From Irpex lacteus (taxonomy: Eukaryota; Basidiomycota; Agaricomycetes; Polyporales; Irpicaceae): a stretch of DNA of 64,000 bases. The translations under genes and the position numbers were made by a program. The DNA is taken from positions 62,001 through 126,000 of the forward strand of contig MQVO02000030.1 of the NCBI GenBank assembly GCA_001986395.2, read 5' to 3'. The notes under the pieces were generated by a model. The model was not told the origin of the DNA, ran no database searches, and was given only the letters and a program-made list of their open reading frames with translations. Positions 18,401-56,378 of this stretch are shown here, piece after piece. Each line of letters opens with the position of its first letter. Within the stretch, counting starts at the first letter, position 1.

Positions 18401-18469
18401 ATCGGCCGCTTCCATGGTTTGATAGGACACGAGTTATCTGCGTCTTGTTCCGTGTACATGGAAAAACCC

Positions 18470-20837: not shown

Positions 20838-23800
20838 CTATTCCGCAGGCCTCGCCTCCGCCTCCACCTCCGCTGCTTGCTCCTGTCCTCTAGTATTGAC
20901 TTCTATGTCTGCGCGGGCGCGATCTGGGTCCGGCTCGGCATTGGATCTGTGAGTTCTGTTTCAGTTTGCTTTTGATGTATCAAATGAGGGGCATACCCTG
21001 GGATAGTATTTGAGCTCCCCGCTGCAATATCATCTGTGCGCCGTGAGTTGTCTTCGCCCACGGCATCATCATGAAGCAAGGGTGTCGTGTGGTTCGATGT
21101 TGTAGCGGCTTGTGTACCATCTGCGGTGACCTGCGATTCATCTCGAGCCTTGGCTGGGATCTGCGGAAGATAGATTAGTGAGTTATATGGTATGTCCAAG
21201 ACCAATCTGTCACACACAGTCTCATCACGAGCACCTGTAGGCGAACCTGCTGGTGTAGTAAGCTGCTCAGCAATGCTTGAAGTGGCTCCACCCTCTGCCG
21301 AAGCTTGGTATGCTGCTATGCCTGCAACATCCTTCACCTCTTCAGGTGGTTCCATGGGTGTTCCTTCCGGTTGAAGCTATAGAAGATATGTAATGAGTAG
21401 TTTCTCTGGTAGACGTGGCTGAAGACTTGGCTCACCTCCTCAGGACCGTCTCCATCATGGCTATCATCCAGCCTCTCACCGGGTGAGCGGAATGTGTCTT
21501 TTGACATGTGAGCTGTCTTGTGCCTATACCAAATGAAGTCAAATCAACCTTTTGTTGCTCTCAGATGACTAAACTCACATTGGAGAAGGTGGCTGTCCAA
21601 GCTGGCTGCCTCCAGCTGGTCCTGAATCAGTCTGGGAATATATATCAGCCACTTCTGTAGATCTGACTCCAACTTCTGAGGGGGCTGTAGACTCTAGAGG
21701 TGATACAGTCTGTATGCAGTGTACACAGTGAGTCATGAGATTTCATAGAAACAAATCATAAAACATGAGACTTACAGAGATGTCTGTAGGTAGCTTGGGC
21801 TGTATTCCTCCAGAGACACCAAGTTCATCTGCATCAGCTCCTAGGTCATTGAGAATGGGGCCTTGGAGGACTTGAAGCGGTGCGCTTGTTTGTATGCCTC
21901 CCAATGCTTCACCATTATCATCCTCAGTTCCAGGTGGATACAAATTTCCTGGGTGATCTTGGTACGCTATAGCCATGTCCAACCCTTTTCTCCAAATAGC
22001 AAGTTGTTCATCCTGTGACATGTGGGCAATTTGCAGTAGCTGAGGATGTTGGCTAGGAATCTGTGACAAATCCTCTCCAGCTGTCCGCCAAAGCATGAGG
22101 TAGAAAAAGTCTGGAAGAGGCAAGGCTTCCTGTGAAGAGTCTTCCAGTGGATCAGGAATTACTCTCCAGCCAGATCTTGCAAGTTGTTGTAATGCTGCAA
22201 GTTCATCTGGTGACAGATTAGAGAATGGCCAGAAATCCCATAATCTGAAAGCAAGCCAGATAAAGGTCCGCTTCCATTGTGCTGCTTCATTGGAAGACCA
22301 TCTTGGCCTACTGACCCGATCACCATGGATCTTGCTATACATCACTCTCACAGAGAGTCGTGAGAGCTTCAGGATCTCTATAGTGTTCAGTTTCCAGAAG
22401 TCACTGCTGTCATAGTCCACTATGCTGTGGATGACATTTGATAATTGATGAGTATCTGAAGGTCAAAGCTGAGCATCAAAAGGATTAAACTTGAAAGCAG
22501 TTTTATTAGACACACTTACTATTTTCATCTGTGTAAACAGTATCAAATATTTGACAAATGATAGCATAATCAAATATGAGGCATTGCTGCACTAGTATTT
22601 TCTGTGCTGATGTGTCTTCTTTACTGGTTTGCAAAGCCCATTGAAATGTAAGCTGCAACGGTGCATATTCTCCTCTTGTGGGAATCCCAGCAGGCATAAT
22701 ATGAGAGGCATGATATAGAGCAACAGCAAAAGCAATGCCCTCAAAATACCATCTCTTGGTGGCATCAACCTGTGGTGTGGTGGTCATACTGTTCATCTGT
22801 TCTGGCTTAAGATGTAGAGGGAGAAAGGGTGGAGAAGGATTTGGAATGCATATGTAGATGTTAAATGCACACCAGGCTATTGCTTCCCAGGTTTTTGGAA
22901 AAGTCACACCAGTGACACCACCGGTGTTTGTTGCAGCAAGTTTGGGTGCAACATATGCTCTGAATATATTGCTGATAACATCTTGTACCACAGGTGAAAG
23001 TGATCCGCACACATCATAGATGTGCTTTGGATCAATTTCATTATCCACTATGGGTACACGGTTGCCAATGACCTGCACAGCAAAATCCACAAGCTGAACC
23101 CAGTTGGCATCACTTTGCTCAAGAGCACTTGTGATAGTAGTTCTGAGCAAGTGATCATCTGCCTGCAGAGCATCTGCATAGGCTAAGATCTTCAAGTCAA
23201 GCTGCACATCTTTTATCATGTCTGCTTCCTCGACTGGCTTCCAGGGCCTGTAAGCTTTGAGCTGATCATCAAGTCTGGAGAAGAGCTGGTAACCCCTGGT
23301 GGTACTAGGGTGTTTGGAGAGATCATCTATCCAATCAAACATCTTGTAGAGCATGCCAACAACAGCACAGGGAATAGACTTCATGATGATGTGTATAAGA
23401 ACAGCAGACACATGAGTGCGAGTAAGCTGTGTGATGCCTGCAAGAGCTGGAGTTGTATATGGACAGCGAGCTGAGAATGATGGTGCTATAGTGACCACCA
23501 GGAACAAGAGAGCCCATGCACCAACAAGTGGCACAGTGGTTCTGCCTAGAGTAGGATGTACATCCCAGGTGAAGATGCAAAGGCCAGCAAAGAACAAGGC
23601 CAGGGATATCTGGAGCAGGAGAGGAAGAGTAGATGCTATCCCAAAGACTCGCCAGGCAGTGAGGCCGCTGCGGCGGAAGTGGCGGACTCGGAGCTGGCCC
23701 TGTGGCGAAGCAGTGGCAAAAGCCATGTAGACCCGCAGCCACTGCTTGACTAGGATGGCGAATGATGCTGTCGCTAAACTGATCACCAAGCTGGCAAACC

Positions 23801-25399
23801 AGAGGATGTTGATGCGGATGGCAGAGATTGGGGGCTGGAAAGGGGAGGAGGGAGCGGAGGGAGTGGACATGGGTATGGAAGCAGATGCTTGGCTGGGATC
23901 CTGGAGGAGAGGGTAGGACACAATGACAAAGGCAGTGAGGACCGCAGAGTATAGACCAGTCTACAACAGAGATTGTTCATATAAATTCAGTATAAGAAAG
24001 GAAGGGAGAGAGTAGAACAAAGACATACAAAGGTAAGCAGGGAGTCAATATCTTCCTTGTATCCACCGATCTCTTGTTGATCGAAGTCCTTGAGGGCCTT
24101 CTCCACCGCAGCCCAACCGGTGAGCTGTCCAGGTGGGGCTTGCTGTCCAGAGGAGGCCTGCTGTGCAGCACTTGATGGCTGCTGGATCCCTTGGGGATCC
24201 TTCGGAGGTGGACCAGGTAGAGGATGGTGTTGACTATCAGCAGGCTGGTTATCCGGAGCCCTGCCTCTGCTGCTTGTGGCTTTGTCGGGAACTGGATTGG
24301 CAGTGGCAGCGGTAGCGGAACCAGCTCTTGCATCTTCAGAAACGGAGGGACGGGGTTGTGGGTTCTGAGCACAAGCACAAGAACAAGCTGTGCACTTGTT
24401 GTCATTAGGGGGTACATGCATGTGTGGACTATGCGAGCTGCCGAGATGCGAGAGAAGATCTCCCGCATCCTTAAGCAATTTCGCAACTTCTTGAAGTTGG
24501 TTAGTAGCAGCACACCCGGCCAAGTCACGAGGTGTGGGGAAGTCCCCTAAGGCATGCCCAGAGGTCGCGCATTCATTACGAGAGGCCGTATTAGACTGAT
24601 GTGGCGCCAGCGATGCTGGATCATCCAGCGCGGAAGGAAAATGGACACCAATAGCACTAGGGCCATCTGAACTCGCATCGACCGTGGCGGGGACAACACT
24701 ATTGTCAACCGCGGCGGAACCTCGAGTGGGCGTAGAGCTGCGTGCACTCGACACACCAAGAGGTGTGAGAGTGACGTGGACGCCACCGGCGTTGCTCGAG
24801 CTAGCCTCGCCCGCGGCGGTAGCGGTGACTTGCTTGCTTGCACCTGATTCCTGAGGTTGGCCAGAGATGTGTGCACCCGACACACCGCGAAGCGAGGTAG
24901 TACCGTGAACGTCGACAGCACCACTGTCGCTCGAGCCCGTCTTGACGAGAGCTTGGCCAGTGGGGTCGTTGACTTGAGGATGTCCGGAGCGATGGTCGCT
25001 CGACAGACCGTGGGAGGAAGGAGCGTTGGCGCCGCTCGAGTTCATCACGACCGCGAGTGACGCAGTAGCGCCGCCGACGAGAGATGGACGAGGAGAAGGG
25101 ATGGGACTACTGGCACTTGACAGACGAGGGTGCGCAGGAAAGAGGTCGACGGCACCTATGCCGCTCGAGCTCATCTCGACCGCTGCTGGGACAGTGGTGT
25201 CGTCCCCTCCAGTCGAAACCTGAGGAGGCCCGGAACTAGCAGTGCTCAACGAAGCGTCGACGTCGTCGCTCCGCTCTTGAGGCGGAGCGTCTTGCAACGT
25301 GCGCGTGGGAGCGACCGCAGTATTCGCAACTGGGGCTTCGAGAGTACCGCCGGGGTCAACGGTGGAGCGAGCGTCGTTTGCGTCCGAGATCCAAGCCAT
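20838..25399 (-). CDS. DUF6535 membrane protein, array copy A
   Basis: Eight exons on the minus strand: 24029-25399, 22520-23960, 21776-22455, 21579-21709, 21436-21523, 21218-21376, 20997-21160 and 20838-20946, giving 1380 residues. Start MAWISDANDARS is chosen because B and C begin equivalently. Residues 1-330 are Ser/Thr/Ala/Pro-rich and repetitive; a Cys cluster CTACSCACAQ follows at 336-345. The DUF6535 core runs from about 428 (GWAAVEKALKDFDQQE) to about 620. It has four predicted membrane segments near 453-475, 507-528, 568-588 and 599-617; intron 1 splits the first. Typical family text is LYSAVLTAFVIVSY and ILVKQWLRVYM. Then come a DALQADDHL soluble region and a WSSNEAAQWKRTFIWL module. 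The C-terminal 200 residues are low-complexity and acidic, ending EAEARPAE. Exons 4-6 (131, 88, 159 nt) match copy B exactly. Function unknown; the family is expanded in Agaricomycetes. Confidence 0.88.
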
Positions 25400-25418
25400 G
25401 GTATGAGTTTGGTGATAT

Positions 25419-25897
25419 TTAGTGTTGAGAAAAGCGATGCTGTTTCGTTGGAGGACGAAGTTCAATGCGAGAGTCGTCCGAGGTGGTGGTTGCAGAGAGA
25501 GAGAAGGAGAGACGTGCACGACGTGAGGAGCGTACGCCTCGTGGTAGCTGCGTGCTGAACGCGGGATATGGGCGTTCGAGTGCGTCGGTGATTCCCATTT
25601 CCAGGTCGTGGCGGTACGCGCTCGTGGCCACGTTCTTGGCGCAGCTTGACGAGCGACATAGTCGAGCGGAGCTGAGAAGCTGAAGAGTCTCTGTGAGTAG
25701 TGGTATAAGTGAGATAAGCGACGTACGCACCTAGGCTGCGACGCCGTAACGCGTTGATGTCATATTCCAGGGCACTCTCCCGGCCAGTTGGTATGGAGTG
25801 AGATAAATTCCAGCTCGCCATGGAATAAGACGAGACCTGTCGACAACGTAGGGTATGAATGAGGCGGATACAGGGATGGACTACTGTACGTACCCAT
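25419..25897 (-). other. Conserved leader region between locus Y and DUF6535-A
   Basis: A 106-nt exon-like block (25731-25836) between AG and GTGCGT encodes MASWNLSHS..., and an equal 106-nt block occurs at 56714-56819 in unit C. A further block follows an acceptor at 25690 and reads RPYPAFSTQLPRGVRSSRR in both units. These may be 5' untranslated or alternative first exons of the DUF6535 genes. In unit C the frame is even open straight into the DUF6535 exon. Confidence 0.35.
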
Positions 25898-26713
25898 TCA
25901 ACGCAGAGGGCCTCCAAATGCGAGTAGACGAGACAGGTAATAGAAACAAAATTCTTGCGAGAAATGCGTAGGGTTAGCGTTCGTGCGGCTTACTGAGAAC
26001 GGTGCGCCGATAACAGTACCGTGTGGATCTGTAAAACGAGATCCTATATGTCAGCGATGGAACGAGGGTCTATGACAGACAACACGCACCGTTGATATAT
26101 CATGCCGTACACTCGTAGATTGTCTTTGAAGTATCAATGAGACAGATTCATACCGTCAATCTACTTCTCGTTTAGCAGCTCTCGTACAAATGGATTGCGT
26201 TGATGATGCCAAAGCGAACCTTGCTCGTGATTGTAGAGCAGGATTTGAGCTTCCCACATGAGGTCATCTTCAAAAGGGTCATCTCATGAAACGGAGACTA
26301 TGCCGACGACAAGCATGACACCGTGAGGCTCCTGGCGACGATTGAGCAGTGCGAGAGAGAGAGAAGGGTCAAAGCGGATAGAACGGGTCATCGAATAGCG
26401 CAGACGTGATTGACATTTGGATTCCTGAGGAGACTGACGACGCTATAAGTGCTGTATCGATTGTGACGGTAGGCGAATACGCACCTTTAGAAACCTATTC
26501 CGTCCACTGATTACCGTGTAACCAGACCTTCTCTGGCCTCACCTCATCTTCTCCGATACTACGTTGCGGTATGAACAGATTTGTTACCCAGGTTGCATAC
26601 AAGTTGGGCTTTGACCGCCGTTGATTGCATAGCGTACTTCGAGTTCGCACGATCGAGTAGTATCTCATTGCTATAGTCTCAAATGTCACTTGACTGAGTT
26701 TAACGTTGTACAA
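25898..26713 (-). CDS. Spacer locus Y, unit A (conserved spliced gene of unknown function)
   Basis: Minus-strand pieces conserved with unit C. Exon a, 26515 to about 26713, encodes RRSKPNLYATWVTNLFIPQR, then SIGEDEVRPEKVWLH. Exon b, 26090-26282, begins DDPFEDDLMWEAQILLY. A 35-nt exon c is at 25994-26028. Exon d starts at 25953 and reads FYYLSRLLAFGGPLR and stop at 25898. Exon c has the same length and phase in unit C, and both copies end AFGG[PS]LR-stop. In unit A exon b carries in-frame stops (after LLNEK), so this copy may be dead. The 5' end is not defined. The locus lies directly upstream of DUF6535-A on the same strand. I recognise no family. Confidence 0.4.
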
Positions 26714-26925
26714 ACAGCTCTAATTTCGTCGAACGAAGAGAGGTCAGTTCAAAGCAGTCGAAGAGCGACGATCGTTTACGCACCTATACTGCAAGGCCTC
26801 TCTCGACGACAGGCCTCTTACAACAAATACCTCACTCTGGTAGTCGTCATCATGTTGTAGTGTCCCGTATGTAGCATTCGCGTGTAAGTCGCGCTTGAAC
26901 TGGTGACATCGAGGGCCGAGGTATC

Positions 26926-28252
26926 ATGAAGGTTCACAGCAAGATGGGTCGTGGCGTCTGCACCGAGTCGTCGAACGATGCTCGGGCCGCTCATCCTTGC
27001 AGCTCAACGCACGACCTCCATGTCTCCGCTCGTTCTCACTCTGTACAACTCGGTAAGTGCCTTGTCATGCATATTTAAGCACCTCTGGACTTACTAGAGT
27101 GAATAGATCAGCCCTACGCGACAAGACTTGGCCATCAATGAGTCAAGCTCCACGCTGGCCGAGCACGAGCTCAGGGCTCTCTGACCCCAGTGCACCTGCA
27201 ACGACGCCGACAACCAGTCACACGTATGATGCAGCCGTCCCAAGCTCTATACTGGAGGGAGTAGCGGACAGGACCATGTGGGAGAGCAAGTCGTAGAGAA
27301 GCTTTGATCGGGTGAGTCGCTGACTATATCACTGAAACCTCTCATAGACCTCTTGTACCGTTCCCTCGCCCACTTGGACTTCCCACAACGCGTTTGTAAC
27401 CCCCGTCCTCTGTATCAAGGCGAACTCCCTGTTTACTCGCGCGAACGCGGTCTCCCTATCCACTTGCGACCCATCTCACAACTCGCCCCATCAACTCCAT
27501 ACCTACCCACCTTGTGTGACATCTTCCACGGTCCTGGTGTCCAGCCGTCCCAAGACTCCACTCGCTCTATTTGCTGTCTCTGACGGCCTTCAAGCTCTTG
27601 ATATGCATCTCATCTACACTAGGAGTAGCCTAGACGACGTGCTCGTGGACCTCCACACCAGTCTTCGCAATGTCAGTTCACCCCTGCTCCAGCCCAAGTA
27701 TCCTCGGACAGGTACGGCGGGTTCGAGGACTCCCGTAGGCCGTCTCCGATGCCGCGAGCAAGTTGCGGTCGTAGGCACGAGGAACGCCGCCGCCCTCTCT
27801 CGCGATTCTGGTCTCGTTATGGGTTAAACAAGTAGACTGGCTACGAGTCGACGCGAACGCAATCACGCATATAGTCTCAACTCTATCCGAAGACATGACT
27901 GGTCGTCTTACTGGGTACGTTTCGTATCGCTTCGTATTTCTGACGACTCTGGCTGAAATTATAGAACAGTCAGTTTATGTGCTCAGGCTTCTCGAGCGTG
28001 GAATCAAGCCGAATGGAAGCAAATACTCGTGTTTTCACCGTTTTACCTCTTCAACGACACTATGTGCTAGCAAGCGTTGTCCCCTCGTCAATTAACGGTA
28101 CACGTAGCGGTTCGAGTCTCGATCGACGTCACGCTCTATTCTTATAGATTGTGCGGGGAGCCACTCGTAGATTCACTGGCTACTACCTGCGTCTGTGCGC
28201 ATACGATCGTGGTCTTCTCCACTACAAGCGACTACGATGCTTCTCTAAGACG
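26926..28252 (+). pseudogene. Spacer locus Z, unit A (eroded plus-strand gene)
   Basis: A conserved start MKVHSKMGRGVCTESS at 26926 runs to a donor at 27052 and is also seen at 46134 (unit B) and 57945 (unit C). A second block after the acceptor reads DQPYATRLGHQ and then a stop; unit B reads DEPYATRLGRQCVMFLAPR. A third block around 27.35-27.83 kb aligns with 46.56-47.03 and 58.37-58.85. A later exon ending at 28252 encodes GATRRFTGYYLRLCAYDR. Each unit has stops at different places, so the original protein frame is inferable but no copy looks intact. No family recognised. Confidence 0.4.
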
Positions 28253-28959
28253 GTGAGTTCTCGTACATCTCGTCTGCTCGCACTCCCCTCTGATGATCTC
28301 CGTTCGCTCGTACAGAGAGGTAATATCTCGATGCGCATATGCCGTGTCGTAATCCACATTCTTGCAGCCAGCCAAGGACCCCAGCCGTCGTCACAAGCAA
28401 TCAGCTCACCACAACAAGACGGCAAGCTGGTTATAGGCGACCCAGCACTTGTTTCCTGATATCGTTTGCTCGTAACGCTGTGTATATGCCCCACGGGACG
28501 TGCACCCAACACACATATTGTCAAACTCTACGCTCTCTAGGTTATAATCTCATCGTACACCCAACCGTCTGTCACCGTGTATCATATGGCGCTCGTCATC
28601 GCAACTGTTGCCAGTTGCGGACCATACTTTCTCTGGTAACCGTCGACATTCACGTTCACGTCATACTGGCGTACTCGGCACACCGGAAACAACAAGCACT
28701 ACGCTCAAGGACGAGCCTCGACACAGCTGGTTTGATGAAGCGGCCAATCTGTGGGCTAGCTGATGATACTGCGTACGTGAACGAGCATGCGAGCATGGGA
28801 GGACGTGAGACCCTTCCGCGTGGTTCTATAGAGGATCCTCGATACTGAAACAGCGCAGAACGTAACGGCGGACATTGGTATTTATCGCATCGAGTGTAGA
28901 AAGTGTATATTACACGAAAAATAATATAATGCTATTAAACATGATTACCACGAAGGAGC

Positions 28960-30135
28960 ACCGGCGTCGTACGCGAACGAGTGAAGTCGGTCGATGTCGA
29001 GATTCCCGCCTTCGAGCTCCATCGCTTACGGGATGTAGGCTTTGACGACGATTGCACCTAGTATTACTCAAAAGTACGATTCAGCTTGAAAGTGTTCTAC
29101 AGACCATTCACAATCTTTGCGCATAACATCGAAAGGGAAGGGGTTGCACGTTGGTGATTGACGGAGCTGGAGTGCGGCATGGTAAGGCTGACAGGCGTAG
29201 CGATGGACGGCGGAGAGCTCTTTACAGGGGGGAGAGCGTAAACAGCCATTTCTTGAACAGAGTGTGGTGTACTTACCGAAAATCCAATGTCCCACTCAAA
29301 ACGACACCTGATCTCCTTCATCGCAGCGAGTCCGTTTGCTTGGAAAGGCCTGGAGTATCTGGTACCGGGAGACGTGGGTATGGACGGTCTAATTGCGTTG
29401 TCAGAACGTAAGGATGAACACCGAGCACTGATACGGACAGATGACTCACTGGTTCGACCAGTTCAACGTCCAAACTGACAGCCACCCGTCGATATGCATC
29501 GACGACGAGCAAACGATTCCTCGGCTTCATTCTGCTCTGTAAGGTCTTCTCCACGACCGTAACGACCGTGCCCAGGGATCATCTAGCTGTTGAAAGAAAC
29601 GTGCCTGCTCGTATTCGCGTTCTTTTCCGACTGTCGACGATAGACATTCCGCGAGGAGGTCTCTCCTGTGATCGTCGAGGGAAGAAGCGGTTGAGCAGAA
29701 CCGTTGGCGAGCAGAGGGGCAGTGAGATTGATTAGGGTGTCGAGAGTGTGAGGAGCGGAGGTGGAAGGGCATTTGCGACGCTTCTTCAGGTGGGCGTACT
29801 ATGAAGGGCGGCATTACCTATAATGTATGGTGTGTGAAGCGATCCGTAGAAGAGCACTTTGTTCACATACCAATCAATGCGCTCCACGTCAATCCCAAAC
29901 GCTACCTTCTTTACGATGAGATGCTGTCCTGAGTCATGATCAAAACGACCATAACGCCGTTCGATACTATGGGAGAGTGAGTTCGTGAGGGAGCAAGCAA
30001 CGTCGCGATTACTCACCAGGGCGTGACAACCACAATAAATCCTCCAATCTCTTCACCATTTGTTCGTTCTCCGTGGTGCTTGACAATCTGCCACGGCAGG
30101 AATGTTACGCGACAGTGGGCTTCGTATGAGCCTAC
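28960..30135 (-). pseudogene. Spacer locus P, unit A (conserved, probably decayed)
   Basis: Minus-strand exons include 30017-30135, encoding VGSYEAHCRVTFLPWQIVKH. Exon 29818-29966 encodes RRYGRFDHDSGQHLIVKKV and WYVNKVLFYGSLHTPYIIG. Next is a block ETSSRNVYRRQSEKNA after an acceptor near 29.69 kb, then VVTVVEKTLQSRMKPRN and a last exon ELSAVHRYACQPYH near 29.2 kb. Equivalent blocks occur in unit B (FGVDVESID, VSKVLFYGLLHTPYIIG) and unit C (VVTVVEKILQSDMKSTN). An in-frame TGA sits in the penultimate exon of unit A. The family is not recognisable by eye. Confidence 0.42.
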
Positions 30136-36044: not shown

Positions 36045-36162
36045 GAGGATGGAGGGTTAGGGATAGATGGATCGGACCTGAGTACGCGTGTGCGGACGTT
36101 GAGCGGAGCGATGCGCAGAGAGGGCGCGGAAAGGTGAACAGCGGGTGGAGATTAGAGCCAGG

Positions 36163-36614: not shown

Positions 36615-36619
36615 GTTCG
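36615..36619. repeat. 5-bp target-site duplication, right (GTTCG)
   Basis: It matches 31060-31064. With one copy removed, the MULE reading frame is continuous across the insertion point. Confidence 0.9.
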
Positions 36620-39944: not shown

Positions 39945-42900
39945 CTATTCTGCAGGCCTCGCCTCGGCTTCCGCTGCTTGCTCCCCGCCACCAGTATTGA
40001 CCTCCATGTCTACGCGAGTGTGTCCGTCACTTCTCTCGCCGTTTGGCCTGTAAGTTTCATTTCAGTTTGCTTTCGACGAACAAAGTTAATTTTGTACCCG
40101 AGGATAGTGTGTGAGCTCTCCGCCGCCGCAGTAATATCGTCTGCGCGCAGCGAGTTGTTTTCGCCAGCAGCATCATGAAGCGAGGAAGCAGCACCATCCG
40201 ATATTGGATAGGCTCGCGCATCATCCGCGATGACCTCCGAGCCATCTTGAGCCTCAGCCGGGACCTGCGGAAGACATGTTAGCAAGTTGCATGGTGTGTC
40301 CTACAGCAATCTGTCACTTACCATCTCATCACGGGAATCTGTAGGTAAACTCATTGACGCAGTACAGCCTTCGGCAATGCTTGGAGTGGCTCCCCCCTCC
40401 TCCGAGGCTTGGTGCGCTGCTATGGCTGCAAGGTTTTCTGGGCCTTCAGCAAGTTTAGCAGGGTTTCCTGCTGGTTGGAGCTATTGAGAGTATGGGGTGA
40501 GTGCTTTATTAGCTGACTTCTCTCAACAGCTGACATACCTTCTTAGGGCCATCTCCATCATGGCAACCATCACACCTCTCACCAGGTGAGAGCTCTGTGT
40601 CTTCTGTATCGTGGATTGTCTGATGCCTATCAAATAAAGTCAAATGAAACATTCGCTGCGCTCAGATGACTAAACTCACATTGGAGGAGGTGTTTCTCCA
40701 GGCGGGATATTGCCATCTGATCGAGGACTGGTCAGGGAATATTGCTCAGCTGCTTTAGTAGCTCTGAATTCTGCTTCTGAGAGAGGTCCAAACACTAAAG
40801 GTGATGCATCCTGTACACAGTATACATGGTGAGTTACAAGTGTCTATGACATATCATCAAAAACATGAAACTCACAGAGATGTCTATGGGTAGCTCCTGC
40901 TGCAATCCTCCAGAAACTCCAAGCTCACACGCACCAACTCGAGGGTCATTTGGGATAGGATTCTGGATGCCTTGGGGTGGTGCACTGGTCCCGGTGCATT
41001 CAACTCCATCACCATTCTCATCCTCGATGCCAGGTGGATACAGGTTTCCTGGACTTCTCCGGTATGCCTCAGCCATGCGGTATCCTTTGCTCCTAATATC
41101 ACATTGCTCATCCCATGACATTTGTGCAATCCGCAGTAGTTGAGGATGCTGGCTAGGAATCTGTGACAAATCCTCTCCAGCTGTCCACCAAAGCATGAGG
41201 TAGAAAAAGTCTGGAAGAGGTAAGGCTTCCTGTGTGGAGTCTTCTGTTGGAGCAGGGATTTCTCCCCAGCCAGATCTTGCAAGTTGTTGTAATGCTGCAA
41301 ATTCATCTAGTGATAGATTACGCAATGAACTCAGCCAATGGTATAATCTATCAGCAAGCCAGATAAAAGTGCGCTTCCATTGTGCTGCTTCAATTGAAGA
41401 CCATCTTGGCCTGCTGTCCAGATTGTTATGGATCTTGCCAGACGTTGCCCTCATAGCGAGTAGTGAGAGCTTCAGGATCTCTATAGCCTTCAGGCTTTTG
41501 AAGTCACTGCTTTTAAGGTCTACAACACTGTGAATCACATTTGACAGTTGATGGATATCTAAAGATCAAAGCTGATATTAGAAAAACAAGTAATCCAATG
41601 TGAGCTGTGTTAGCGAGTGCTCTTACCAGTGTCACTAGTATAAACAGCTTCTGCAACTTGACAGATGGCAGTGAACTGAAGAGAGAGACATTGTCTCAGA
41701 AGCTGGTTTGCTTTATGGGCATCACCTTTGTCAAATGTCCACAAGCATGTAAGAATAAGCTGCAGGACACTTTGATCTATGTCGCCAAAATTAGAGCCCA
41801 TTTCTGCTCCATGGTATAATTTCAAAGCAAGGGTGAATCTCTTGAGCTGCCATGTCCTGTTCATCCCAGTTTGTGCTCTAACTAAAGCAGACTGGTTTAA
41901 CTCTAGATTGAGATTTAGGAGCAGTTGCTCAGGGTCGTTGACACATGTAAGGACTTGGAATACCCAACGAGCAACAGTCTTCCAGCCTCTTCTTGGAATA
42001 GTCACAGAATCATCTCCAAGTTCAGTAACCTTGGAGATGGCATGTGTATGAAAGACATTCTCAATGACATCTTTGACACCAGATGAAAGTGAGTTGTAAG
42101 CGCTGATAATATCAGGCTCACTGTCTACCACAGGTATGCGGTTGCCAATAATTTGCACCGCAAATTCAACAAGCTGAACCCAATTGGGGTCACTTTGCTC
42201 CAGAGCACTTTTGATAGTAGTTGCAAGCAGGTGATCATCAGCCTGCGAAGCATCTGCTGCTGCCAGGATCTTCAAGTCATGCTGGGCATTCTTCTGCATG
42301 TCTAGTTCCTCTAGCAGGAGGAGCTCATATTTGCTGAACTGATCATCCAGATCAGAAAAGAGGCTGTAAGCACTTTGTATGACAGAAATGTCAATATGAT
42401 CATTCATCCAATCAAAGATCCTGTATAGTGTCCAAATGATGCCATGTGGGATATGCTTTATGATGATACATGCAACAGGAGCATACACATGAGTCCGCAT
42501 AGCACATGTAATGCCAGCAAGAGCCGGAGTTGTATATGGACAGCGGGTAGTGAATGACGGAGCGATGGTGACCACAAGAAACAGGAATGCCCATGCACCA
42601 ACCAACGGGAGCGTGGTCTTGCCTAGAGTGGGGTGTACATCCCAGGTGAAGATGCACAGCCCAGCAAAGAACAAAGCCAGTGATATTTGGAGGAGAAGGG
42701 GAAGAGAGGATGCTATCCCAAAGACTTGCCAGGCGGTGAGGCCACTGCGGCGGAAGTGGCGGACACGGAGCTGGCCCTGTGGTGAAGCAGTGGCAAAGGC
42801 CATGTAGGCCCGCAGCCACTGTTTGACAAGGATGGCAAATGATGCAGTGGCTAAACTGATCACTAGGCTGGCAAACCAGAGGATGTTGATGCGGATGGCA

Positions 42901-44451
42901 GAAATGGGAGGCTGGAAAGGGGAGGAGGCAGCAGAGGGAGTGGACATGGTACCGGAGGCAGGACCTTGAACCTGAAGGAGAGGGTAGGAGACGATGACAA
43001 AAGCTGTGAGGACAGCAGAGTATAGACCGGTCTAAATGGAAATAATTCGCAGAGCTGAGTTAAGCAACAAGGAAACATAAGATAGCGAGATCAAAACTTA
43101 CAAAGGTAAGCAGGGAGTCAATATCTTCCTTGTATCCACCAATTTCTTGTTGATCAAAATCCTTGAGAGCCTTCTCCACCGCAGCCCAACCGGTGAGCTG
43201 TCCAGGTGAAGCTTGCTGTGCAGCACTTGTGGGCTGCTGGATCTCTTGAGGATCCTTCTGAGGCGGGCCAGAATAACGAGGGTCTTGACTATCTGCAGCC
43301 TGATTAACCGGAGCCCCACCTCTGCCGCTTGTGGCTGCAGCGGGAGCTGGAGTGGCAGTGGCAGTGGAAACAGCTCTTGCACCACCAGTCGCTCCAGAGA
43401 CAGAGGGAGGGGGTTGTGGGTGCTGAGCGCAAGCACAAGAACAAGCTGTGCACATGTTGTCATTAGGGGGTACATGCACGTGTGGACTATGCGAGCTGCC
43501 GAGACGCGAGAGAAGATCTCCCGCATCCTTTAGCAATTTCGCAACTTCTTGAAGTTGGTTAGTAGCAGCACACCCGGCCAAGTCACGAGGTGTGGGGAAG
43601 TCCCCTAAGGCACGCCCAGAGGTTGCGCATTCATTACGAGAGGCCGTATTGGACTGATGCGGCGCCAGCGATGCTGGATCATCCAGCGCGGAAGGAAAAT
43701 CGACACCAATAGCGCTAGGGCCATCTGAGCTTGCGTCGACTACCGCAGGGATAATGCTGTCGACAACCACAGCGGAACCGCGAGTAGGCATAGAGCTGCG
43801 TGCACTCAACGGAGGGAGAGGTGTGAAGGTGACATGGTCTGCGCCAGTGTCGCTCGAGCCTGTCTCGCCCGCGGCAGTAGCGGCGACTTGCTTGCTTGCA
43901 CCTGAATCCTGAGGTCGGCCAGAGATGTGTGCATCCGATGCACCGCGAAGCGAGGTAGTACCAACACCACTGTCGCTCGAGCCCGTCTTGACGAGAGCTT
44001 CGACAGTGGGGTCGTTGACTTGAGGACGTCCGGAGCGGCCGTCGCTCGACAGACCGTGAGATTGAAGAGCGTCGACGTTGCTCGAGTTCGTCTTGACTAT
44101 AGCTGGGACAGTAGCGCCATCGATGGAAGATGAATGAGGGAAAGGGATGGTGCCACTTGCACTTGAAGGACAACGAGTTACCGGAGTTTTCGCACCAGCG
44201 TGAGCTGCGCTCGTTCTGCTCGAGCTCGTCTTGACCGCGGCTAGGACAGCGGCGTCACCATCTTCAGCGAGGCCCTGAGGAGAGACGGAACGAGCGGTGC
44301 TCAACGAAGCATCAACGTCGCTGCTCCACTCTTGAGGCGGAGCGTCTTGCGACGCGAGCGTGGGAGCCACCACAGCGTCCGTAGCAGGAGCTTCTCGAGT
44401 ACCACCGGGATCGACGATGGAACGAGCATCACTCGCGTCGACTGAAGTCAT
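39945..44451 (-). CDS. DUF6535 membrane protein, array copy B
   Basis: Eight exons on the minus strand: 43102-44451, 41627-43031, 40876-41558, 40680-40810, 40539-40626, 40322-40480, 40098-40264 and 39945-40047, encoding 1361 residues; all phases agree. Start MTSVDASDARS. Architecture is as in copy A: a long Ser/Thr/Pro-rich N-terminus, a CTACSCACAQ cluster, and the DUF6535 core with four membrane segments, the first split by an intron. The soluble C-terminal half ends EAEARPAE. The N-terminal exon is nearly identical to copy A for about 130 residues before the core. The last third of exon 2 (from about DIISAYNSLSSG to TSDTG) is very different from both A and C and is 36 nt shorter. The exon then returns to a conserved IHQLSNVIHSVVDL module. 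No frameshift or stop is seen. Confidence 0.88.
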
Positions 44452-47400: not shown

Positions 47401-49581
47401 ACCCCACTACAAGCGACTACGATGCTTCTTCAAGAGCAAGTGAGTTATCTCGTACATCTCGTCTTCTTGCGCTCGTTACTCACGATACCCGTCATTCGTA
47501 CAGAGAGGTGGTTTCTCACAGCGATATACCGTGTTGTCCCCAGACGGTGGACCCCAACATTTTACAGCCAATGACCATAGCCGTCAGTTCTTATCACATT
47601 ACGAGTCACGACATCGTACTGATCACATTTTATTCAGCACTCGTTCCTTTAGTTGCTCGTAACGCTGTGTATATGCCTGCACTCGGCGCGCGCATTGTTA
47701 TGACAAGCTGCACGCTTTGACGCACTCTCCCTCATCGTACCCCGGACCGATCGTACTGTCCTCGTCTTCCGCACTCGCGCCGTTGGCGAAACGTACGTTC
47801 GCTGGTAGCCGTCCACGTAGGATTTGCGTACTAGGCGTACTGGCAACAACAAGCACGAAGCGATCAAGGGTTCGACATCGCAGGTTTCAAGGACATACGG
47901 CCCCATCTTTGAAGTGACAGGGATAGTACGAGAACGAGCATCGGTGACACGAAGCTTCTGTAGAGGGTAGTCGATACGAAACGTCGCAAAAGGTAACTTC
48001 GGACGTCGATGATCAGTAAGTCGAGCGTAGAACATGTATATTACACGACAAATGATATAATGCTATTAAACATGATGAGCACGGAGGAGTACCGGGCCTG
48101 TATGCGAACGTCTCGATATTCACGACGTCCGCCGCTATGTGTTCATGCAGTGTATCCCTCGATGACGATTGCGTTTAGTACTTGGCTGTGGGATACGGTC
48201 TGAAGGTGCTCTACAGGTCACTCGATAGCCTCTATCGTAACACAGAGAGCAGAGAGGGATGCCCGTTGCTAGCTGCTTGGGGTTGAGGCTTGAGACGATA
48301 AGACTGGCACGCGCCGCGATGGACAGCCGGGAGGCCTTTGCAGGCGAGAGAGCAAGCGACGATATGTATCTTGGACAGAGCAAGGTATACTCACCGAGAG
48401 TCCAACGCTCACACGGATCGACACTCTGATGCTCCCAACCGAGCTGTTCGCACCCAAAATCCTGGAGGGTCTGATACCCAGTGAACATGACTAGCATTCC
48501 TAACGCAGGTTCATAACATCAGTACTGTATGAACGCCGAGCAACTGAGTTGTACGGCCATATAATCCAACGATTTTGTTATTGGATGTAGAACTTCGACA
48601 GTCATCCGTCCATATGCACTGACGAGAAGACAATTCGTCGATTTCCTCTCGCTCTGTGTGGTCTTCTGCATGACGTTCGTGTCCACGGCAAAATACTACG
48701 CACGCGAGCTGTCTACGACTTGCTCCGTGTGCATGGTCAAGCCATCTAGCGGTCGAACTCAACGCGCCAGCACATACTCGCGTTCTTCTCCAATTGTCGA
48801 CGGCGTACGTTCCACGAAGTCCTTTCTCTTGTGAATGCCGAGGGAATAAGCGGTTGAGAAAAAAAGTCGGCGAGCAGAGGGGTAGTGAGATTGATTGGGG
48901 TGCCGAGAGTGTGAGGGACGGAGGTGGAAGGGCATTTGCGACGCTTCTTCTTGAGGTGGACGGACTATGAAGGGTGGCGTGACCAATAATGTATGGTGTG
49001 TGAAGCAATCCGTAGAAGAGCACTTTGCTCACGTACTAATCAATCGACTCCACGTCAACCCCAAACGCTACGTTCTTTACGATGAGATACTGTCCTGAGT
49101 CACGGTCAAAACGACCATAACGCTGTCCGATAAGATGCGTGGGTGAGTTCGTCGAGGAGTTTGTAGCGATGTTGTTACTTACCGTTGTCCGACAATCATC
49201 GTATGTCCACCTTTATCTGCATCTCTCGTTCCTCCGTGTTCGATGATGACCCGCCACGATGGGATCGTCTTGGAGCGAAAGGACGTTCGTGCACGGGGCA
49301 AGCTTTGCATGAGTCTACTACATACATATATCAAACGACGAGGGTGATACATGCATACAAGAGCGTTCGCGTATCAAACAGTTGAAGATATGAGATACGG
49401 ACGGGCAGGAAAGCAACATGCAGTCCTCACGCTGGGCTGTACCGTGGCCTTCGAACGTATACAGCTATGGTGGCTTTTGTGAGAGAAAATAAGCAGTCAG
49501 TCCACGGTCGAAGCATACGTAGCTATTCCTGGACTCACCTCTCTCATCGACACCACATCATTTCTCATGAGTGCTACACGC
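44452..49581. other. Array spacer of unit B with degenerate loci Y, Z and P
   Basis: Collinear with 25.4-30.4 and 56.4-61.3 kb but the most eroded. Locus Y is shortened: near 45.82 kb only the AGCTTGTATGCA part of its first exon survives. Locus Z fragments: MKVRSKMGGGVCTESS at 46134, DEPYATRLGRQCVMFLAPR near 46.32 kb, and an exon ending 47439 that encodes RRATGWYLRLCEKDLGIPHY. Locus P fragments on the minus strand: FGVDVESID and VSKVLFYGLLHTPYIIG near 49.0 kb, and MLVMFTGYQTLQDFGCEQLG near 48.46 kb. None forms an intact gene that I can assemble. Confidence 0.45.
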
Positions 49582-49643
49582 TACACACTGCGGGCCACGA
49601 ATCCGGTTGTCAGAAGTGGTGAGCCCACTGATGTGCTCGAGGT

Positions 49644-49898
49644 CAGTGGGAAACCCACTGGAAAAGCGCCCACGTAAAATCAGTGGTTTTCCGATCAGTG
49701 GTTTTCCCACTTGTAAGATCAGTGGTTTTCCCGTTCAGTGGGTGTGTCAGTGGGGTTCCCACTGTGAAATCGTGATGGTCTTCAAACTACTGAACGATGT
49801 GATTAAATGCAATTGGTAGCAATCAGCGGAAATACCGAGGGAACGAAGTGGGAATCCCACTGATACGACCGAAATCAGTGGATATTCCGCTGATTTCG
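49644..49898. repeat. Left cluster of palindromic CAGTGGG motifs
   Basis: Perfect or near-perfect palindromes: CAGTGGGAAACCCACTG at 49644-49660, AGTGGGAATCCCACT at 49847-49861, and a longer near-palindrome at 49870-49898 (CGAAATCAG...CTGATTTCG). Between them lie direct repeats of ATCAGTGGTTTTCC at about 49679-49733. Confidence 0.9.
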
Positions 49899-49965
49899 AT
49901 AGCTAAATTATTCTAAGTACGTAAAAAGAATGGTATATATTATGTAATATTCCTATACCTGTAAT

Positions 49966-50076
49966 GCCCTCGTAGTTCAGTTGTACTGCCGCCCTACGTG
50001 TCATGTATGTTACTCTGCGCAGGTTCGAATCCCGCTTCCTCCTGATTTCGACGGCCGCCGTAGAGCCGTATTTTTT
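49966..50076 (+). ncRNA. tRNA-derived Pol III module (SINE-like or tRNA relic)
   Basis: An A-box-like TAGTTCAGTTG at 49973-49983 and a perfect B box GGTTCGAATCC at 50022-50032 are spaced like those of a tRNA gene. A T6 run at 50071-50076 can act as Pol III terminator. The acceptor ends (GCCCTCG and CTTCCTC) and the D arm do not pair, so this is not a functional tRNA. The central part of the palindrome-rich element may thus be transcribed by Pol III. Confidence 0.6.
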
Positions 50077-50182
50077 GTGTCCATGTCTTAAATCCAGTTA
50101 GAATCAGTGGATTTTCCGCCTTTTATAACCGGTGTCGAAAGGCTCGCAAACGATGCGAAACAGCCAGAAACGCAATATTAAG

Positions 50183-50266
50183 AAGTGGGAAACCCACTTG
50201 TCACAACCCAAAAAATGAGCGCTATCAGTGGTTTACCGGTGGGTTGAAATCAGTGGGTTGCCCACT
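50183..50266. repeat. Right cluster of palindromic AGTGGG motifs
   Basis: AAGTGGGAAACCCACTT at 50183-50199 and AGTGGGTTGCCCACT at 50252-50266, with further single CAGTGG half sites to the right end. Confidence 0.9.
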
Positions 50267-50344
50267 TCGTATGCATGGCCTCCCGACTGATTTCGCAGTG
50301 GATCTCCCACTTCATCCAACCGGGTTCGTGTCCTGCAGTGTACA

Positions 50345-51821
50345 AGCCGTGCGGAGAAATGGCTGAAGAAGGTGGCAGTCCTCGAGGCAGAAGAGAGTGA
50401 GCGGAAGTCGGACCGAGCTCGAGCCAGTTGAGGAAACGCCACCACGGTCGCGGTCCCCCTTTCGCGGCGACCACCATCCGTACATCCTCACTCACTGATC
50501 AGACAGTTCGACCACCTCGACGTATTCTCAACCATGGACCAATCAAGCGAAGATAAGAGAAGATGAGCGTGTCGTGCGGGAGACTATGTTAGGTGTATGG
50601 TACGTCGATCCATCTCTGAGTTGTTTGGACTCGACATCGCTCACGATACCCACAGGCTCTGTACCGTACCGTACTACTGTCGGTGTAATCGCTATACCCA
50701 CTATCTTCTCTGGCTTCTGAATCGCTTTCCACAGGTCAGCGCGTCTCTCATCCATGCCCACCATCCAGACCCGTAGACCCGTGGGATCTCTCGCACAGAT
50801 GACTATGTCTGCGTCTCTTCACACCTTCCCTCACCTTACTTCTATCAAACCAGCCTCTCATACGGATTTGTCGAACACGCCCACCTGATCCGTGGATGTT
50901 ATCTAGACTCGATGGCCGTAGTATTCGAATAACGGTGCGGCACAACGCGTCTCTCCTGTAAGGCTATGAAGACGACTCGGTACGTGCTATTGCCTCTTTT
51001 TATTCACGATATTAACAACTTTTGACTATGAAGATAGCCAAAGCGTTTACACACGCTTTTGGCCTTTACGGACAACGTCCCTGCGTGCTCCCCACCCCTA
51101 TCACTCGTACATCAACGCGACATAGGGCGAAAAAGCCGCATATTCCATTAACATGCAAGCCCATCCCCTCTCGTTCCTGCTTCTCGCTCACTTCTGTGCG
51201 CAGGCACTTCTCCTTCGACCCGCCCTCACATGGCTCCATTCTGTTCTTAGCTTACCCTGTGGAAACTGGCGGAAGCCCCATTGCGGACGCTATTCGTTGG
51301 TTTCCTCTTGTCTACCACCTTTGGCAAGCCTGTGTAAGTCTAGGATCCTCATCGCTGTCAACCGATCCACCCCGGAATGCGAAGGCCAGCTTGCTCATTA
51401 CACGATAGAGTACGCGCGCCGTCAATCATCGTTGAAATGAGGAACCGTCCTGGACAATGAGGCATCGACTAGGTCGTGAGTAGAGATGTGGTACGGGGAA
51501 TGGCCATAAAAGCGGAGAGTCTGAGAGAGACGAACCAAGTGATTAAGGTGCGATCTCTCTCGTACGCTGTTTTCTACGTTGGCTAACCACGCGCGTAGGT
51601 TTTAGACAGGTAGATTACCATCGGCATGTCGTTTCGCATCAAATGAGCAAGCCGCATGTTACTTTCTTGAAATTCGAACAAACAGCATACAATGCTGTAC
51701 AAGCATTCGGACAAAATCAATCAATACAGATAACCGACACAAGACGATCCATCGCCCTTGTCCGAAACAACCTCTTCACAACATGCATAGGGCTTGTCCC
51801 TATTCTCAACGCTTATAATCT
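50345..51821. other. Array spacer downstream of DUF6535 copy C
   Basis: Collinear with the spacers at 19.3, 38.6 and 61.4 kb. The block GGCTATGAAGACGACTCG plus GTACGT recurs at about 50963, followed by AFTHAFGL. It is followed by a plus-strand frame to about 51.4 kb with no recognised domain. Confidence 0.4.
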
Positions 51822-54800
51822 CTAGTCCGCAGGCCTCGCCTCTGTCTTCGCCATCTGCTCCTCGTCTCCAGTACCGGCTTCTACATCTGTGTGAGCGTAA
51901 CCCTTGTCCCTCGTGCTACTTGACCTGTGAGTTCTGTTTCATCTCGCTTTCGGAGAAATTAACTCGGTGACGTACCCTTGGATAGTGTGCGAGTTTCCTG
52001 CCACAATATCATCTGTGCGCTGTGAGTTGTCTTCACCCACGGCATTGTCACAAAGCGAGGGTGTTGTGTCGTTTGACATCGTGTCGGCTTGTGTACCATC
52101 TGCGGTGACCTTCGAGCCATCTTGAGCCTCAGCCAGGCCCTGCGGGAGATATATTAGTGAGTTGCATTGCGTGGTGTGTTCGAGAGTAATCTGTTGCTTA
52201 CCGTTTCAACATGGGAGCTTGTAGACAAACTCCTCGGTGTGGTCTGCCCTTCGGCACTGCTTGGAGTAGCTCCACCCTCTGCCAAAGCTTGGTGCGCAGC
52301 TATGACTGCAAGGCCATCTGTGCCTTGGGCAAGGTCTGCTGGTGGAAGCTATAGAGAGCATGTGGTGAGTGCTTTATTTGCTGGCTTCTCTCAACAGCTC
52401 ACTTACCTCCACAGAATCCACAGAATCCAGCCTTTCACTGTGTGAGGCATCAATGTGTCCTGAATCTTGAGGTGTCGCATGTCTATACCAAATAAAGTCA
52501 AATTCAACCCTCACCGCACTCAGACACTTGAACTCACAACGCAGGTGCTGTTTGTCCAAGCTGGATGCTGTTAGCTGGTTTTGAATTGGTCTGGGAATGT
52601 TGCTTAGTTGCTCCAGTAGTTCTGAATCCAGCTTCTGATAAGGCTCTGGACTCTAAAGGCGATACATCCTGTGACACAGTGTTTGTAGTGAGTCATAGTG
52701 ATTCTCTAAAACTGATGACAACATGAAACTCACAGAGATGCCTCTCTGTGATCCTCCAGCAACACCAAGTTCATCTGCACCAACTCCAGGATCATTTGTG
52801 GTGGGATCTTGGGGACTTTGGGATTGTGGACTTGTCCTGATGCCTTGAACTTCATCATTCTCAGTTCCAGGTGGATACAAGTTTCCTGGATTTCTCCGGT
52901 ACGCCAAAGCCATGGCCAATCCTTTTCTCCTAATCTCAATTTGTTCTTCACTTGACATGTGTGCGATTCGCAATAGCTGAGAATGTTGGCTAGGAATCTG
53001 TGACAAATCCCCTCCCCCTGCATACCAAAGCATGAGGGAGAAATAGTCTGGAAGAGGCAAGGCTTCCTGTGAGGACTCTTCTGTTGGATCAGGCATTTCT
53101 CCCCAGCCAGAACTTGCAAGTTGTTGCAATGCCAGAAGTTCATCTGGTGACAGATAAGTAAATGGCCAAAAATGAAATAATGTATAAGCAAGCCAGATGA
53201 AAGTGCGCTTCCACTGTGCTGCTTCATTGGAAGACCATCTTGGCCTACTGTCCCGATTGGCATGGATCTTGCCATACATCACTCTTGCTGAGAGTAGTGA
53301 GAGCTTCAGGATCTCTATGGCCTTCAGGTTCCTGAAGTCGCTGCTTGCATGGTCCACAATGCTGCGAATCACATTTGACAATCGATAGATATCTAAAGAT
53401 CAAAGCTGTGTGTTAGAAAAATTGAAGTTAGAACGAGCTCTGCTAAACACACTTACCACTTTCATCTGTGTACACAGTATCAAAGATTTGAGATATTATA
53501 GCATAATTAAATATGAGACACTGCTCCACTAGTGTCTTCTGAGCTGATATGTCTTCTTTACTGGTTTGCAAAGCCCACTGAAACTTAAGCTTCAAAGGTG
53601 TATATCGTTCTATCAATCCAAATGATCTAATTCCAGCAGACATAAAACCAGAGGTGCGGTATAAAGCTACAGCAAGGCTGAGCTGCTCAAGATACCGTCT
53701 TTTGATTATGTCAGCTTGTTGTCCAATTCCGGCCAGTTGGCTTTCATCCAGACATAATGGGAGAAGGGGTGCATCTGGGCCTGGAATATGTACAAAGATG
53801 CAGAATGCCCACCAGGCTATAGTTTTCCAATTTTTAGGAAAAGCAACACTACTGGTATCTATCTCAAGATTCTCAGCAAGTTTGGGTACAGCATGAGATC
53901 TGAATATTTGATTGATAACCTCTTGTACCATAGGTGAAAGTGTTCCATACACATTAAAGATGTGCTTCGGATTGATTTCACTGTCCACTACAGGTACACG
54001 GTTGCCAATGATCTCCACAGCAAACTCAATGAGCTGAACCCAATTGGCTTGGCTTTGCTCAAGAGCACTTGTGATAGTAGTCCCAAGCAGGTGATCATCT
54101 GCTTGCAAAGCATCTGCTGCTGCCAGAATCTTCAAGTCATGCTGGAGATTCTTCTGCATGTCCAGTTCCTCTAGCAGGAGGAGCTCATATTTGCGGAATT
54201 GATCATCCAGATCAGAAAAGAGGCTGCAAGCACTGTGTATGATAGAGATGTCAATATGATCATCCATCCAATCAAAGATCCTGTATAGTGTCCACACAAT
54301 ACCATGTGGGATATGCTTCACAATGATATGTGCAACATGAGCATACACATGTTTACGGATAGCACCTGTAATGCCAGCAAGAGCTGGAGTTATGTATGGA
54401 CAGCGGGCAGTGAAGGATGGAGCAATGGTGACCACTAAGAACAGGCATGCCCATGCACCAACTAGTGGAACAGTGGTTTTGCCCAGAGTGGGATGTACAT
54501 CCCGAGTAAAGATGCACAGGCCAGCAAAGAACAAAGCCAGTGATATTTGGAGCAGAAGAGGAAGAGTAGATGCTATCCCAAAAACTCGCCAGGCAGTGAG
54601 GCCGCTGCGGCGGAAATGGCGAACACGCAGTTGGCCCTGTGGCGAGGCAGTGGCAAAGGCCATGTAGGCCCGCAGCCACTGTTTGACAAGGATGGCAAAC
54701 GATGCAGTGGATAAACTGATCACTAGGCTGGCAAACCAGAGGATGTTTATGCGGATGGCAGTGATGGGAGGTTGGAAAGGGGGGGAGGCAGTGGAGGGAG

Positions 54801-56378
54801 TGGACATGGGCATGGAAGCAGATGTTTGATTGGAATCCTGGAGGAGAGGGTAAGAGACAATGACAAAGGCAGTGAGGACCGCAGAGTATAGACCAGTCTA
54901 CAACAGAGATTGTTCATATAAATTCAGTACAAGAAAGGAAGGGAGAGAGTAGAGCAAAGACGTACAAAGGTAAGCAGGGAGTCAATATCTTCCTTGTATC
55001 CACCGATCTCTTGCTGATCAAATTCCTTGAGGGCTTTCTCCACCGCAGCCCAACCAGTGAGCTGTCCAGGCAAGGCTTGTGATCCAGACGGGACTTGCTG
55101 AGCAGCGCTTGACGACTGCTGAGTATCTTGAGGATCCTTCGGAGGTGGGCCAGAAGAGTGACGGTCACGAATGTCTCCAGCATGATTATCCAGCATTCCA
55201 CCTGTGCTGCTTGTGGCTTCAGCGGGAGCTGGATTGGAAGTGTCAGTGGCAGTGGCAGCAGCCACGGAAGCAGCTCTTGCACCACCAGTCACTCCAGAGA
55301 CAGAGGGAGGGGGTTGTGGGTTCTGAGCGCAAGCGCAAGAACAAGCTGTGCACTTGTTGTCATTTGAGGGTAAATGCACGTGCTGAGCAGTTGAGATGCC
55401 AATGCGCGAGAGCAGATTTCCCGCGTGCTTGAGCAGTTCCGCAACTTCTTGAAGTTGGTCAGCGGAACCGCACTCAGCTGCGCCATGAAGGACGGAAGAG
55501 CCTTCGACGGCAGGTACAGAGGTTGCTTGAGTGTCGACAGAGGCCCGAGAAGTGCTGGGGTGAGGCAGCGGCGGCGACAAACCGTGAAGAACGGGGGTTG
55601 TATCAACATTGACGGCACCGGTGCCGTCTGAGCTTGTGTCGATCGCGGCGGGGATAATACTATTGTCGACTGCAGCGGAACCTGGAGTGGGCGTAGAGCT
55701 GCGTGCACTCGACACACCAAAAGGTGTAAGAGTGACGTGGACTCCACCGGTGTCGCTCGAACCCGTCTCGCCCACGGCGGTAGCGGTAACTTTCTCGGCG
55801 GCACCTTGTTCCCGAGAAGGCGTGGTTGTGCACGCACTCGACGAGCTGTGCAACGGAGGAGTAGTACAAGTGTTGGTGATGACGGTGTCGCTTGAGCCCG
55901 TCGCGACTGCAGCTTGCACAGCGAGTTCGCCGAGCACAGCTGAGTCTTGAGACCGCTTGAAGCTGTGTGCACGCCGCGACAGACCATGAAGTTGAGGGAT
56001 CTGAGCGTCGGTGCCGCTTGAGTTCGTCTTGATCACGGCTGAGACAGTAGCGCTGCCGACGAGAGATCGATGAGGGAAAGGAACGGGGCCACTGGCACTC
56101 GACGTAAGAGGAGGCGCAGGAGTGACGTCGACGGCACGCATGCCGCTCGAGCTCGTCTCGACTGTGGCTAGGGCAGCGGCGTCACCAACTCCAGCTGAAT
56201 CCTGAGGAGAGGAGGGACCGTTGGTGCTCAACAAAGCGCCGACGTCGCCGCCCCGCTCTTGAGGCGGAGCGTCTTGCGACGCGAGCGTCGGAGGGACCGC
56301 AGAGTCCGTAGTTTGGGCTTCGAGAGTGCCGCCGGGGTCAACAGTAGAACGAGCGTCGTTTGCGCTGTTTGAAGCCAT
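51822..56378 (-). CDS. DUF6535 membrane protein, array copy C
   Basis: Eight exons on the minus strand: 54966-56378, 53457-54897, 52734-53392, 52538-52668, 52407-52482, 52202-52348, 51976-52139 and 51822-51924, encoding 1377 residues; all phases agree. Start MASNSANDARS matches copies A and B. The frame is open a further 142 codons upstream (to 56804, MASWNLSHS), so a longer N-terminus is possible in this copy. Architecture is as in copies A and B, with CTACSCACAQ before the DUF6535 core and four membrane segments. The end of exon 2 (TSKEDISAQKTLVEQCLIF, then FDTVYTDESG) closely follows copy A, whereas the middle (LFSDLDDQFRKYELLLLEEL) follows copy B. The N-terminal exon differs from both just before the Cys cluster. 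No disabling change is seen. The tail reads TEARPAD. Confidence 0.88.

Follow-up and report, generated by a model that had tools for sequence, protein, structure and literature searches.

The window analysed here, i.e. the 64,000 nucleotides C212:62001-126000 of an Irpex lacteus assembly of 44,346,346 bases in 317 contigs, contains from position 18430 to its right end at 64000 part of a tandem array, as delimited by repeat spacings and by self-comparison of contig C212. All coordinates below refer to the window unless a contig is named. Repeat families are spaced by 11.8 kb and, in the transposon-enlarged unit A, by about 19.1 kb; these spacings indicate that the repeated unit is the whole tandem stretch of about 11.8 kb and is larger than the DUF6535 gene alone. 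Three such genes, A, B and C, lie on the minus strand, and a fourth copy, D, starts past the window end. Exon models were built manually from the genomic sequence and comprise six exons each: gene A (20903..25399, 1394 aa; exons 25399-24029, 23960-22520, 22455-21776, 21709-21579, 21523-21436 and 21376-20903), gene B (40301..44451, 1278 aa; exons 44451-43102, 43031-41627, 41558-40876, 40810-40680, 40626-40539 and 40480-40301) and gene C (52154..56378, 1304 aa; exons 56378-54966, 54897-53457, 53392-52734, 52668-52538, 52482-52407 and 52348-52154). All introns are GT-AG, the frames are fully open without internal stops, and the last exon of B and C stops earlier than that of A. The first-pass annotation had placed the start of C at 56378, as we find it, and the end of A at 20838, which is corrected here to 20903.

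Exon 2 of A, B and C matches the Pfam family DUF6535 (PF20153) with 140.8, 137.8 and 139.6 bits, respectively (E 5e-41 for A), far over the cut-off of 23.9 bits, and the three genes are thus members of this family, found in mushroom-forming fungi, which has 103 matches in the genome. The Pfam model spans roughly residues 1-130 of exon 2 and also weakly matches the final part of exon 1 in C; exon 3 and the two hypervariable blocks described below, HV1 and HV2, lie outside it. A search with exon 3 returned six relatives, two of them named Irpex lacteus and none named from other species.

Several further elements were observed in and around the units. A Copia-type LTR retrotransposon lies within unit A (31065-36614; long ORF 31497-36056), and its two 438-nt LTRs are 99.8 % identical, which points to a recent insertion. 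Beside it, at 36536-38677, are two plus-strand ORFs, the second with a SWIM zinc finger that we take to suggest a MULE-type transposase. Outside the DUF6535 gene, segments at 27683-27957, 46877-47151 and 58693-58967 are 77-84 % conserved between units and have plus-strand open frames; they are candidates for a second gene or for a regulatory part of the unit. Three related ORFs (2486-3235, 10872-11825 and 15381-16355) are partly alike and gave no Pfam match, and they are reminiscent of fungal BTB-type proteins.

A second array was found on contig C59, with six copies (h1-h6) vs four (A-D) on C212. Copies h1, h2 and h4-h6 were covered to 1.5 kb either side of the main exon match, and coverage of h3 reaches further on one side; for this reason several tails, as well as the first exon of h2, h5 and h6, are incomplete. 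Two of the ten copies look broken: exon 2 of h2 is disrupted, and in D a transposon interrupts the exon 1 end and exon 3 has a premature stop. The element inserted in D is 1.2 kb long (L038:2112-3308, i.e. C212:128112-129308) and is matched over at least 1 kb at 96-99 % in seven other places of the genome; D was therefore probably broken recently.

The surroundings of the two arrays are closely similar. The left flank (5500..9500) is 97 % identical to C59 over 4 kb, a left-side stretch of 4.5 kb with two non-array DUF6535 genes is 97.1 % and 99.0 % identical over two pieces, and the right flank is 96 % (6.4 kb piece) and 98 % (3.2 kb piece) identical, with 86 % at the right edge (C212:129303-136000). 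Within the array, where 20501-31000 and 38800-50500 were searched (unit C lying outside), matches to C59 longer than 1 kb reached 67-81 %, and one stretch of 0.8 kb reached 91 %. Copy D is 84 % identical to h5 and to h6 over 2.1 kb each. In 120-column windows, the median of the best cross-array identity was 0.84 for A, 0.82 for B, 0.84 for C and 0.87 for D, and only 23 of 281 windows reached at least 0.95 (A 1/71, B 5/70, C 1/71, D 16/69). Set against the flank identities, these values mean that the two adjoining DUF6535 genes are ordinary alleles whereas the array genes have no clear allelic partner except parts of D, whose longer near-identical runs with h5 and h6 indicate that some positional allelism remains. 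C59 is most likely the other haplotype of one dikaryon; if so, divergence between haplotypes is far above that of the flanks (array genes 0.82-0.87 vs 96-99 %), as is expected of allorecognition loci.

The first-pass annotation had described A, B and C as mosaics of each other, and sliding 150-nt windows (coordinates on A) bear out each of its three switches. Ahead of the Cys cluster, A and B are nearly identical and C differs (24719-24417; AB 0.87-0.97 vs 0.55-0.69 for other pairs); in overlapping windows this tract extends over 24342..24720 on the minus strand (AB 0.83-0.97), and the best A-B run comprises 271 columns with 8 mismatches. After the membrane core, B and C agree and A differs (23485-23183; BC 0.86-0.93 vs 0.59-0.71), and at the end of exon 2 A and C agree and B differs (22789-22478; AC 0.69-0.81 vs 0.37-0.49). 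Two more switches, absent from that annotation, were recovered: A and C are 0.95-0.96 identical around intron 1 (24092-23861) and 0.86-0.96 identical upstream (25900-25410). All joints were read from the contig sequence of one assembly, and any single joint may reflect an assembly error.

Recombination tests agreed with the windows. With partner labels permuted across the A/B/C region (1760 informative sites), none of 2000 shuffles reached the observed clustering, and the same held for exon 2 and for the part before it (0/2000 each); after exon 2 the signal was weaker (0/2000 for the mean statistic, 4/2000 for the maximum). Fourfold-degenerate sites only (130 sites) gave moderate support, with 23/5000 (mean) and 82/5000 (maximum) shuffles reaching the observed values. 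In the PHI test, 0/1000 permutations were as extreme as the observed value in each of six data sets. Along each of the ten genes the nearest copy switches, within and between arrays, and for the 25 of 45 pairs listed, the best near-identical run of a pair is 51-695 columns long. Paralogues within an array, and the two homologous arrays, have thus exchanged short tracts of about 50-700 nt. Since the tracts are short and bounded by other partners, gene conversion fits, and double crossovers would leave the same pattern.

Exchange takes place on a constant frame. In C, the conserved membrane core covers exon 2 residues 1-165 (54403..54897, minus strand), and an AlphaFold2 model of this exon is all-helical, with predicted core helices at residues 2-19, 45-79, 105-134 and 136-162. 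Scored in steps of 20 residues along exon 2, identity among the ten copies is 0.77-1.00 as far as residue 180, except for 0.58 at 21-40; it falls to 0.19-0.43 at 181-240, rises to 0.60 at 241-260 and 0.85-0.91 at 261-300, and declines again to 0.53-0.58 at 301-340 and 0.18-0.38 from 341 on. HV1 corresponds to residues 178-250 of C (54148..54366, minus strand; median identity 0.25 among 13 sequences), and by extrapolation to about 23211-23429 in A and 42288-42506 in B on the same strand. HV2 corresponds to residues 345-470 of C (53488..53865, minus strand; median identity 0.27 among 12 sequences), extrapolated to about 22551-22928 in A and 41627-42005 in B, likewise on the minus strand.

Both blocks were grouped in the ten copies plus three further sequences (P0001, P0007 and P0141), h2 being omitted from HV2, where it is broken. 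At 45 % identity, HV1 forms five groups (A; B, C, P0001; D, h5, h6; h1; h2, h3, h4, P0007, P0141) and HV2 four (A, C, D, h5, h6, P0001; B, P0007; h1, h3; h4, P0141), while at 60 % there are six groups for each. The two groupings cross each other. Exon 1 is likewise of two kinds, one in A, B, C, h1, h3 and h4 and the other in D, h2, h5 and h6, and in h2 the second kind is joined to a core resembling that of A-C and h4. Windows, permutations, trees and block identities together support what the first-pass annotation had proposed, namely that array copies recombine or undergo gene conversion and that hypervariable blocks sit in a constant frame.

The same blocks were found in other combinations elsewhere. 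Proteins labelled BC629DRAFT come from another I. lacteus assembly, probably that of strain CCBAS Fr 238 617/93. Average nucleotide identity among four strains of the species is reported at about 94 % (PMC12134385). In this other strain, P0003 and P0141 (both on 395,436-nt contigs) are probably one gene split in two: its exon 1 belongs to the second kind (70-72 % identical to D and h5, 35 % to h4), and its HV1 and HV2 windows are 72-95 % like those of h4, which itself has a first-kind exon 1. P0011 and P0140, both on 124,613-nt contigs, join a D/h5-like exon 1 and core to an h2-like end of exon 3, the last block being 94 % identical to h2. Two metagenome proteins behave similarly: P0001 has B or C as its nearest copy in HV1, followed by h5, C and finally A further on; the nearest copy of P0007 is h4 as far as HV1, h2 after that, and then B at 75-95 %. 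In the exon 3 pieces P0136-P0139 the best partner also shifts, at lower identity. P0001, P0007, P0003/P0141 and P0011/P0140 are new combinations of the array's blocks. Exon 1 kinds, HV1 types and HV2 types therefore combine differently across copies, another strain and metagenomes, and the evidence for recombination takes in other strains as well as the second array, which is probably allelic.

Selection along the gene, which the first-pass annotation had proposed to assess by dN/dS per segment, was estimated by the Nei-Gojobori method in 30-codon windows over all pairs, the silent divergence of exon 1 being taken from the six first-kind copies. The segments do differ: for most windows at the exon 1 end and over the core dN/dS stays at 0.03-0.22, the exon 2 linker has 0.56, HV1 ranges over 0.27-0.88, and values from residue window 360 on are 0.29-0.60. 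Values above 1 were not obtained in exons 2-3 (0/18 and 0/8 windows, i.e. 0/26), where the dS of the HV blocks is near saturation and alignment-dependent, and occurred in two of 16 exon 1 windows, slightly (1.03 and 1.25). The core is under strong purifying selection. Silent divergence is 0.12-0.89 in exon 1, 0.5-1.0 in the core, 1.1-2.4 in HV1, 0.95-2.0 in HV2 and 0.12-0.52 in exon 3, which suggests that the HV types are old, exons 1 and 3 more homogenised and the core intermediate. High silent divergence of the HV blocks, together with the absence of dN/dS above 1 in exons 2-3, argues for a diversity made by shuffling of old types and not by fast point change.

Alternative explanations differ widely in how well they accommodate these data. 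Rates vary strongly along the gene, and a single tree with very uneven rates or selection might therefore mimic a mosaic in the absence of recombination. We find this scarcely credible: AU tests on the ten copies, in which the stretch between exon 2 and the tail was divided into eight segments, rejected 53 of 56 foreign trees at 0.05 (the exceptions being S2 with the S3 tree, S3 with the S2 tree and S6 with the S7 tree), so that supported topologies conflict, and the mosaic is also seen around intron 1 and, with the moderate support mentioned, at fourfold sites. The single consistent tree against which the first-pass annotation had set its reading is excluded by permutations, PHI and AU tests, provided the alignment is right. 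It is improbable that C59 and C212 are paralogous clusters within one nucleus, arisen by segmental duplication, instead of haplotypes. The assembly is indeed not fully diploid, as its total equals that of a strain assembled in 79 contigs (44.36 vs 44.33 Mb; PMC12134385), but both flanks are colinear at 96-99 %, and an MCM gene also seems to be present twice (C264 and C308), each of its exons scoring almost equally on both contigs, which is the picture expected of retained haplotigs. In fungi of this kind the best-known loci of high heterozygosity are the mating loci, and the block could have diverged as part of, or in tight linkage with, the mating-type locus; this is very improbable, as Homeobox_KN matches lie on C58 and C187 with none on C212 or C59, and neither homeobox nor pheromone-receptor families occur among 25 of the 28 families listed for 46 ORFs, a scan that short exons could escape (43 of these ORFs come from 53 ORFs of at least 210 aa outside the array, over 226 of the 350 kb of C212).

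The main rival is neutral birth-and-death with concerted evolution, in which adjacent similar copies swap pieces and turn over fast with no need for a recognition function. The unequal copy number of the two arrays, the two broken copies, the transposons inserted in the array and the dN/dS values of exons 2-3 all speak for it, and we hold it to be possible, if somewhat doubtful. It accounts less well for a strongly constrained core and complete frames in A-C, for deep HV types that keep to discrete positions and preserve the reading frame within an otherwise similar framework, for the recurrence of the same types in one other strain and in metagenomes, and for a divergence that ends at the array where the adjoining DUF6535 genes are ordinary alleles. 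With close to even confidence, we read the array as a recognition-type locus that is polymorphic and in which ectopic gene conversion diversifies the DUF6535 membrane proteins. Our favoured explanation for the persistence of deep types is balancing selection on a recognition function, although array paralogues can be old without such selection; the dN/dS of exons 2-3, the broken copies and the residual positional allelism of D are counterpoints to recognition, and no trans-species sharing of HV types came to light in the sequences compared.

In the proposed mechanism, misaligned units would exchange and short tracts would be copied from one to another; exchange between like copies would homogenise them, and exchange between unlike copies would move whole types and set new combinations on the conserved membrane domain. 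Under the recognition reading, the membrane helices would anchor the protein, HV1 and HV2 may form a variable contact surface, and rare combinations would be favoured by balancing or negative frequency-dependent selection. The most plausible role would be somatic self/non-self recognition between mycelia or immune recognition of antagonists. Allorecognition, already a guess in the first-pass annotation, stays a guess, with some of the expected population features present. The more specific proposal of a somatic (vegetative) incompatibility locus, in which gene conversion reassorts modules of exon 1, HV1 and HV2 into a combinatorial repertoire of DUF6535 membrane receptors, we consider rather unlikely. 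If true, it would make DUF6535 a new class of self/non-self receptors in mushroom-forming fungi. The mechanisms of somatic incompatibility in basidiomycetes were described in 2021 as completely unknown (PMC8229728). The array shows traits to be expected at a locus of this kind, points to one gene family and provides testable modules; even under another function it is a clear example of shuffled modules at a fungal locus of very high heterozygosity. In the literature searched for DUF6535 and PF20153, the sole mention was a row of an expression table, and no role has thus been proposed there.

Known systems offer partial parallels. In Podospora anserina, the NWD family (NACHT plus WD40 repeats, with positively selected codons) exchanges recognition-type segments within and between loci such as het-d and het-e (PMC1805685). 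The array resembles it as a family exchanging such segments between genes, but is arranged in tandem and has a membrane domain and two helical blocks that are not repeats. Membership of the NWD family is ruled out, since no NACHT or WD40 was found in the scanned ORFs of A-C: exon 2 matches DUF6535 only in Pfam, and neither domain occurs in the exon 1 ORFs scanned in part or whole (A, B and C) or in exon 3 of A. The tgrBC locus of Dictyostelium is described as a variable block between stable markers with intralocus recombination, copy gain and loss and no strong signature of selection (PMC12324515). The array shares these traits, recombination being within genes, but its proteins are unrelated and it does not belong to that system; tgrBC recognition is proven (PMC12324515), whereas a recognition function of the array is putative. 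No paired receptor and ligand, as in tgrBC, was found at the array. The het genes of Aspergillus fumigatus have a narrow footprint of balancing selection (PMC11138114), and the array is similar in that divergence is confined to the locus with ordinary flanks; they are, however, single genes proven by mapping and expression (PMC11138114), unlike the array.

A few observations concern DUF6535 proteins elsewhere. In P0104, a distant relative of JGI source, DUF6535 precedes a series of 42-residue WD40 repeats; of ten relatives scanned, it is the only one with another family. The 42-residue WD40 repeat is that of het-d and het-e, and we treat this fusion as a lead only towards recognition. On contig C163 (L016-L020) there is another DUF6535 cluster, to which one protein of the other strain is 94 % identical (L016) and two, with same-sized contigs, match best at 50-57 %; this cluster may thus also vary between strains. 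Contig C38 appears to hold a much larger DUF6535 array, with nineteen places between about 32.7 and 318.8 kb, 12-22 kb apart, that match a DUF6535 exon at 67-74 %.
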